Part shown: piece by piece, positions 5,565 to 7,544 of the stretch
How positions within the stretch are numbered: position 1 is the stretch's first letter
Layout of the letters: every line of letters begins with the position of its first letter
Assembly: GCA_012522345.1 (NCBI GenBank)
Contig: JAAYKO010000033.1
Location: forward strand, 1 to 33,497
Reading direction: 5' to 3'
Length of the DNA stretch: 33,497 bases
From: Acholeplasmataceae bacterium
GTDB lineage: Bacteria > Bacillota_I > Bacilli_A > Acholeplasmatales > UBA5453
Notes under the pieces: model-generated
Told to the model about the DNA's origin: nothing
What the model saw: only the letters and a program-made list of their open reading frames with translations
The model's database searches: none
Made by a program: the position numbers and the translations under genes

Positions 5565-6862
5565 TTAACTGTTTGAATTAGACTTTTCTATTTTCGCTTT
5601 AGTGAGATACTTATACAATTCTTCTACTGCAAAATGCAGTTTGGTCACTAAAAACTCTTTTTCGTGTGAAAAGAAGTAATACGTTTCATTGTCTTTGCTA
5701 AAACTAACCCCTGAACCCCGACCAAAATAATTATATTCGACATGAACACTATAGTTCTCTAATGGCTCTTGCTTGAGCTCAAAGGTCTCACCATTACCTG
5801 CACCAACTATTTTAAAACCATTTAAATCATGGATAAGTTTGCCCTCACCAATTTGATAAAATCCTTTGCTGTTTGGTAGAGAGTTAATTTTTACATCATG
5901 TTCGAAGTAATATGTTTTGGCTTCAATTTCTTTTCTAACCTCTTCACGTTGCCATTCATACCAATCTGGAAGATGACTAAATTCAGTATTTCCGTTTAAT
6001 ACAGATAAACTGCCATCTAGATTTAACTGCCAACTCTTATTACACGAATCACATGTTATTAAATGATCTATTGTTGACATTTTTGCTTCGGTCTTACAAG
6101 CAGGGCATTTATACAAAACTAATTCCAAGCCTTCTGCTCGCCAGGGCTCTTTAATTATAATGTTGTTTTCTTTTTGCCAGCGATAATCATCATAAATAAA
6201 TGCCTCATTAATTTTATCATTAATCTCTTCATACGAGAGATTGGCAGCATCTTCTTTAGATATTATATAAGTTAGTGTTGCAGTAGGATTAATTTTACGT
6301 TTTTTCAAGTTCCACACAGGTTGTACTAAATGATTACCATGTGTAATTAAGGTTGCAACTGGCACCTTTAAATATTTAATTAACTTCCCTAAGCTAGCTG
6401 GTAAAATTGCAGTAGTTCCAACATGAGAATAACGCGCTTCAGGATAAATCATACAGATGTGTTTTAAATCTTCAACACTTCTTTTAACTTGTTTGACAGT
6501 TTTGATGTCGTTAATAAATTTCCGCTTACCAAAACAACCTACCTCTCGCATTATTTTTTCTCGGTTAATAAAACCATCAATAGCGACAACATATGTAGCA
6601 CGACGAGGAAAGATAGCTCTTGTCGCCACCTTAAAATCATAAAACGAGTTATGATTGCAAAGTAAAATATAAGGCTCTTTTTTAAAGGTTTCATCTTAAC
6701 TTTAGTAACTTTTAGTTTTCGCTTTATTGTTTCTGGAAAAGCAATCAACCAAATTAGGGGTAATAATAATTTGCATTGTTTTTTTACTGGCTTGTTAAAA
6801 TCAAACCGTGGCATCTTATTGACCTCACTAAATGGTCTTTTTACTATTTGTTTTATTTTCAT
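5565..6862 (-). pseudogene. PlsC-like acyltransferase with C-terminal zinc-ribbon, split over two frames (frameshift near 6677-6683)
   Basis: Frame of 6551..6925 supplies MKIKQIVKRPFSEVNK...KVKMKPLKK; frame of 5565..6629, extended upstream, supplies EPYILLCNHNSFYDFKVATRAIFPRRATYVVAIDGF, including the NHxSxxD acyltransferase motif. Upstream RBS GAGG. May be functional if frameshifting occurs. Confidence 0.75.
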
Positions 6863-7041: not shown

Positions 7042-7260
7042 CTAGCTGAATAAATATGCTCGTTTGGGTGTGTTCAAACTGCTATTTCCTATCCATAAGG
7101 CATCGGGGTTACTTTTTCTAATAATATTAAGTGCAGCATTTAAATCTGCATTGATTAATTGACCGCTTTTATTTTGATAAAGGCCTCTTTTGATTCTTTT
7201 ACCACTAAACTCTCTCTTAGTTATATGATTTGTGCATTCTAATTTCACCTCCATTCTACA
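7042..7260 (-). mobile_element. Degenerate IS200/IS605-family tnpB remnant, probably internally deleted
   Basis: FSGKRIKRGLYQNKSGQLINADLNAALNIIRKSNPDALW matches the C-terminal TnpB region; preceded by GGAGGTG RBS and a short tnpB-start-like ATG CAC AAA TCA TAT AAC. Confidence 0.75.
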
Positions 7261-7447: not shown

Positions 7448-7461
7448 AAATGTTATTTTTG

Positions 7462-7544
7462 TGCCCGAGGCCGGACTCGAACCGGCATGCCTTATGGGCG
7501 CTTGATTTTGAGTCAAGTTCGTATACCAATTTCGACACTCGGGC
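7462..7544 (-). tRNA. tRNA-Leu(CAA), class II; CCA not encoded
   Basis: Minus strand GCCCGAG...CTCGGGC acceptor; anticodon stem-loop CTTGA-CTCAAAA-TCAAG; long variable arm; GGTTCGAGTCC T-arm; discriminator A followed by CAA. Confidence 0.93.

Follow-up and report, generated by a model that had tools for sequence, protein, structure and literature searches.

A split acyltransferase gene

The 33,497-nucleotide stretch analysed here (the window) is contig JAAYKO010000033.1 of an Acholeplasmataceae draft genome. On its minus strand, an open reading frame (ORF) in what we call frame 0 begins with an ATG at 6862 and ends with a TAA at 6553-6551, and the rest of the gene lies in the -1 frame and extends to 5565 (Table 1). 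At the heptamer where the two frames meet, the zero-frame codons are TTA AAA AAG, which is the phase needed for -1 slippage, and the -1 frame sequence at the join is KKEPYILLCNHNSFYDFKVATRAIFP. The first-pass annotation, made from the sequence alone, had described an acyltransferase split over two minus-strand frames at A_AAA_AAG, and both ORFs and the heptamer are present as described.

Table 1. Features of the split acyltransferase gene (window coordinates).
Feature	Position	Strand	Remarks
Upstream acyltransferase part, frame 0	6551..6862	-	About 60 codons homologous to L032 and other homologues, then about 40-43 out-of-frame codons to the TAA
Downstream acyltransferase part, -1 frame, PF01553-like, with C-terminal CxxC zinc-ribbon-like region	5565..6683	-	372 codons plus stop (5567-5565)
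A_AAA_AAG heptamer at the frame break	6677..6683	-	Conserved in frame in no homologue
HNSFYD, the HX4D acyltransferase motif	6636..6653	-	Readable in the -1 frame only
Weak candidate stem-loop 3' of the heptamer	6627..6664	-	Spacer about 13 nt; within the codons of conserved CNHNSFYDFKV
Longest independently startable downstream ORF, 354 aa	5565..6629	-	GTG start at 6629, past the HX4D motif

On the upstream side of the join, blastp matches the protein to the N-terminus of intact homologues with E values as low as 4e-11, and the upstream 57 codons share 30 of 57 residues with L032, the nearest intact relative (66% identity), which comes from an uncultured Bacillales MAG. After the join, about 365 amino acids align to homologues at 38-66% identity, the highest value being that to L032. 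Since the upstream codons and the downstream frame both match L032, the two halves belong to one gene. Joined, the two frames match a PF01553-type acyltransferase of about 410-440 amino acids, and the joined product, KPLKKEPY at this point, is as long as intact L032; the two have KKEPY in common and are both one residue longer there.

The identification as an acyltransferase was correct. The intact L032 protein scores 24.8 bits against the PF01553 profile, above the curated cut-off of 23, and the -1 frame piece of the window alone scores 21.9 bits, just under it; HNSFYD, in the -1 frame, aligns with HHAFxD or HNxFxD in the homologues. The likeness to the PlsC-like glycerolipid acyltransferases (PF01553) consists of the HX4D motif and the score of L032, with YPEARYS standing where the usual motif III would be. 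The protein differs from that family in a long C-terminal extension that holds a CxxC zinc-ribbon-like region and a conserved domain at the end, and in the frame of the window copy, which breaks at about 6683 where the homologues are unbroken. A sequence search of the PDB with the intact homologue gave no match, that is, no solved relative by sequence.

On the same strand, the acyltransferase gene is adjoined by genes for a family-4 glycosyltransferase and an LPG-synthase-TM-like protein, which makes it plausible that the enzyme acts in the synthesis of membrane lipids or glycolipids. Two tRNA genes also lie on the minus strand, tRNA-Ser (gga) at 579-667 and tRNA-Leu (caa) at 7461-7544. The latter sits between the glycosyltransferase gene and a 70-residue ORF (7042-7254, minus strand) upstream of the acyltransferase, which we take to resemble the C-terminal end of an IS605-type TnpB (ADLNAALNI). 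The last 67 residues of this ORF have no Pfam match, no other copy is found in the genome and nothing in the genome matches PF07282; we therefore consider it an orphan remnant.

Homologues at the break point

A strong match to the acyltransferase is found in 47 of 160 genomes of the order, and the first 18 homologues found there are each a single ORF of 413-462 amino acids. For comparison at the break, 82 distinct homologous ORFs (37-73% identity) were pooled from all loci found. All but one are continuous through the equivalent point, the 82nd (L088) beginning at a contig edge, and none of the 82 has an in-frame A_AAA_AAG there. The outcome that the first-pass annotation had named as counting against it, with relatives in frame and this copy alone broken, is the one obtained. 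The single relative from the same genus that was searched gave no match to the acyltransferase, which does not show that the gene is absent there, since the draft is 85% complete and its homologue of the neighbouring glycosyltransferase lies at a contig end. No relative of the acyltransferase was found in the viral contigs searched.

The fusion of all homologues also bears on the idea that the acyltransferase is encoded as two separately translated genes. Candidate starts do exist in both ORFs; however, the first usable start downstream (GTG 6629) follows the HX4D motif, so that separate translation would give no catalytic domain, and we regard this reading as scarcely credible.

At the break, L032 reads CCC CTT AAA AAA GAA CCA, that is, the same A6G string in one open frame. 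Compared with L032, the window lacks one base in the interval that separates the A run from the conserved Met codon before it, and the A6 is of the same length in both. Accordingly, the A6 length need not be the lesion, since the missing base maps upstream of the run. An extra A in the run, as the first-pass annotation had proposed, would restore the frame, but it is one placement of the missing base and not the sole one, as L032 puts it before the run. From this alignment, the length of the A run does not set the frame between the window and L032. This weighs against phase variation or transcriptional slippage at the A6 run, a reading suggested by the run adjoining the break. In addition, an A6 is short, and runs of A7 and A8 occur in intact genes of the window. 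Switching between A6 and A7, which had been offered as an explanation, thus finds no support in the intact relative, and we consider phase variation or slippage highly improbable.

Just upstream of the intact gene, L032 carries a tandem second acyltransferase copy (L032:1457-2756), whose own frame breaks in the zinc-ribbon region to give ORFs 1457-2290 and 2253-2756; broken copies therefore recur among these acyltransferases. In the same genome, the homologue of the neighbouring glycosyltransferase is also in two adjacent pieces (L207/L209, G160:C21:5388-6538; query 1-132 and 146-388).

The heptamer and its surroundings

The first-listed option of the first-pass annotation was programmed -1 frameshifting at A_AAA_AAG, giving a full-length acyltransferase and a truncated product. 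The heptamer is in the correct zero frame and joins the halves exactly, and the length agreement of the KPLKKEPY product with L032 is in favour of such a shift. Nevertheless, since the homologues are continuous and lack an in-frame heptamer, and since the A6G of L032 lies within an open frame, the site is not an inherited recoding signal.

The heptamer also arises by chance. The 28 intact genes of the window contain six in-frame copies of A_AAA_AAG, spread over five genes, and because of these copies we consider it background in an AT-rich genome; the same genes hold ten in-frame A_AAA_AAA and ten in-frame A_AAA_AAC, and 85 A runs of at least six (59 A6, 23 A7 and 3 A8). The description of the site as a classic slippery heptamer is true to the letter, but what stands at the break is a background sequence, unconserved and lacking convincing stimulators.

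As for stimulators, no Shine-Dalgarno (SD)-like element was found upstream of the heptamer by the criteria of PMC4066793, which bears out the earlier observation. Where no obvious hairpin had been seen, a modest stem-loop does exist (shuffle z -2.25), and it would favour programmed frameshifting; however, some 13 nt separate it from the heptamer, its stability is not unusual, being reached by about 7% of 60-nt gene windows, and its equivalent in L032 is weaker. Heptamers that lack stimulators raise frameshifting in E. coli to no more than about ten times the background of about 0.055% (PMC4066793). The locus shares the zero-frame A_AAA_AAG with the -1 frameshift cassettes of dnaX and IS elements, but it has no upstream SD or conservation and no clearly well-placed structure, and it is neither dnaX nor a mobile element. 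Taken with the unbroken relatives, these points make programmed frameshifting very unlikely.

A variant of this idea is a newly arisen, species-specific site: the one-base loss would have put A_AAA_AAG into slip phase, and the lysine tRNA, possibly aided by the stem-loop, would slip there and still allow some full-length acyltransferase to be made. If this were true, the slippery sequence would buffer an otherwise inactivating indel. We consider it very unlikely.

A recent mutation or an assembly error?

Counted at conserved columns, private changes number 10 in the window copy and 15 in L032. The window copy is thus not evolving faster than its intact relative, and the break would be so recent that the gene has not been relaxed by it. 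Because dN/dS is saturated at synonymous sites, differences were counted by codon position; downstream of the break, those between the window and L032 number 111, 72 and 206 at first, second and third positions, and so fall mostly at third positions. To judge from these comparisons, the acyltransferase gene bears no sign of long decay. It follows from the lack of acceleration and the third-position bias that the break is either recent or not real, and the absence of other decay is compatible with an error and with a recent mutation alike.

Is the base, then, missing only from the assembly? A sequencing or assembly error would mean that the gene is intact in the organism and that one base was dropped from the consensus. 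In its favour, the source assembly is a fragmented draft (91 contigs, 88.8% complete), there is a single copy, without accelerated decay, and an error accounts for the sequence as simply as a mutation does. Moreover, frame transitions that are BLAST-validated but unclustered are expected to be mostly sequencing errors or recent indels (GeneTack survey, PMC3711429), and the present case does not differ notably from the singletons of that survey, in which, likewise, one genome is broken and the homologues are intact.

On the other hand, such an error would be isolated. A survey for breaks compared about 0.53 Mb of this assembly with the ORFs of two relatives (about 0.93 Mb) and recovered the known break as a positive control; 137 distinct places gave one other break, with a loss of about 45 residues and no homopolymer indel. 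Simple indel errors therefore look rare in this assembly. In addition, the runs of A6 to A8 are frequent in the intact genes of the window. The rarity of indel errors makes us lean towards a true mutation, but as the assembly is a draft we think an error a serious alternative, one that stops short of being probable.

The other break of the survey is at L189:8691-10056 (G000:C17, about 48.7-50.1 kb), where about 45 residues and the frame are lost relative to a 509-codon ORF of a relative. The gene is putatively cardiolipin-synthase-like, and the locus is either a second broken membrane-lipid gene or an assembly collapse.

Interpretation

Since comparable relatives keep the gene in one piece, the break is best explained by an ordinary mutation or a sequencing error and not by a programmed frameshift. 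Two of the options in the first-pass annotation, a pseudogene and a sequencing error, both still stand. With modest confidence, we favour a frameshift mutation of recent origin, or a minority allele that entered the consensus, in an ordinary acyltransferase gene of the PlsC/PF01553 type, the break itself being without function. The base would then be missing in the organism and not merely in the assembly. The mutation, confined to this genome, would be a net loss of one base near codon 60, beside the A6G string. Translation from 6862 would run out of frame and meet a stop about 40 codons on, so that the catalytic part would not be made, or would be made at trace level through spontaneous slippage.

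The consequences of a frame-broken ordinary acyltransferase hardly go further than annotation: both ORFs belong in one entry, as a single acyltransferase gene with a broken frame and not as a case of recoding. As a negative case it is nevertheless useful, in that A_AAA_AAG adjoins frame breaks by chance in AT-rich genomes and conservation is needed as evidence of recoding.
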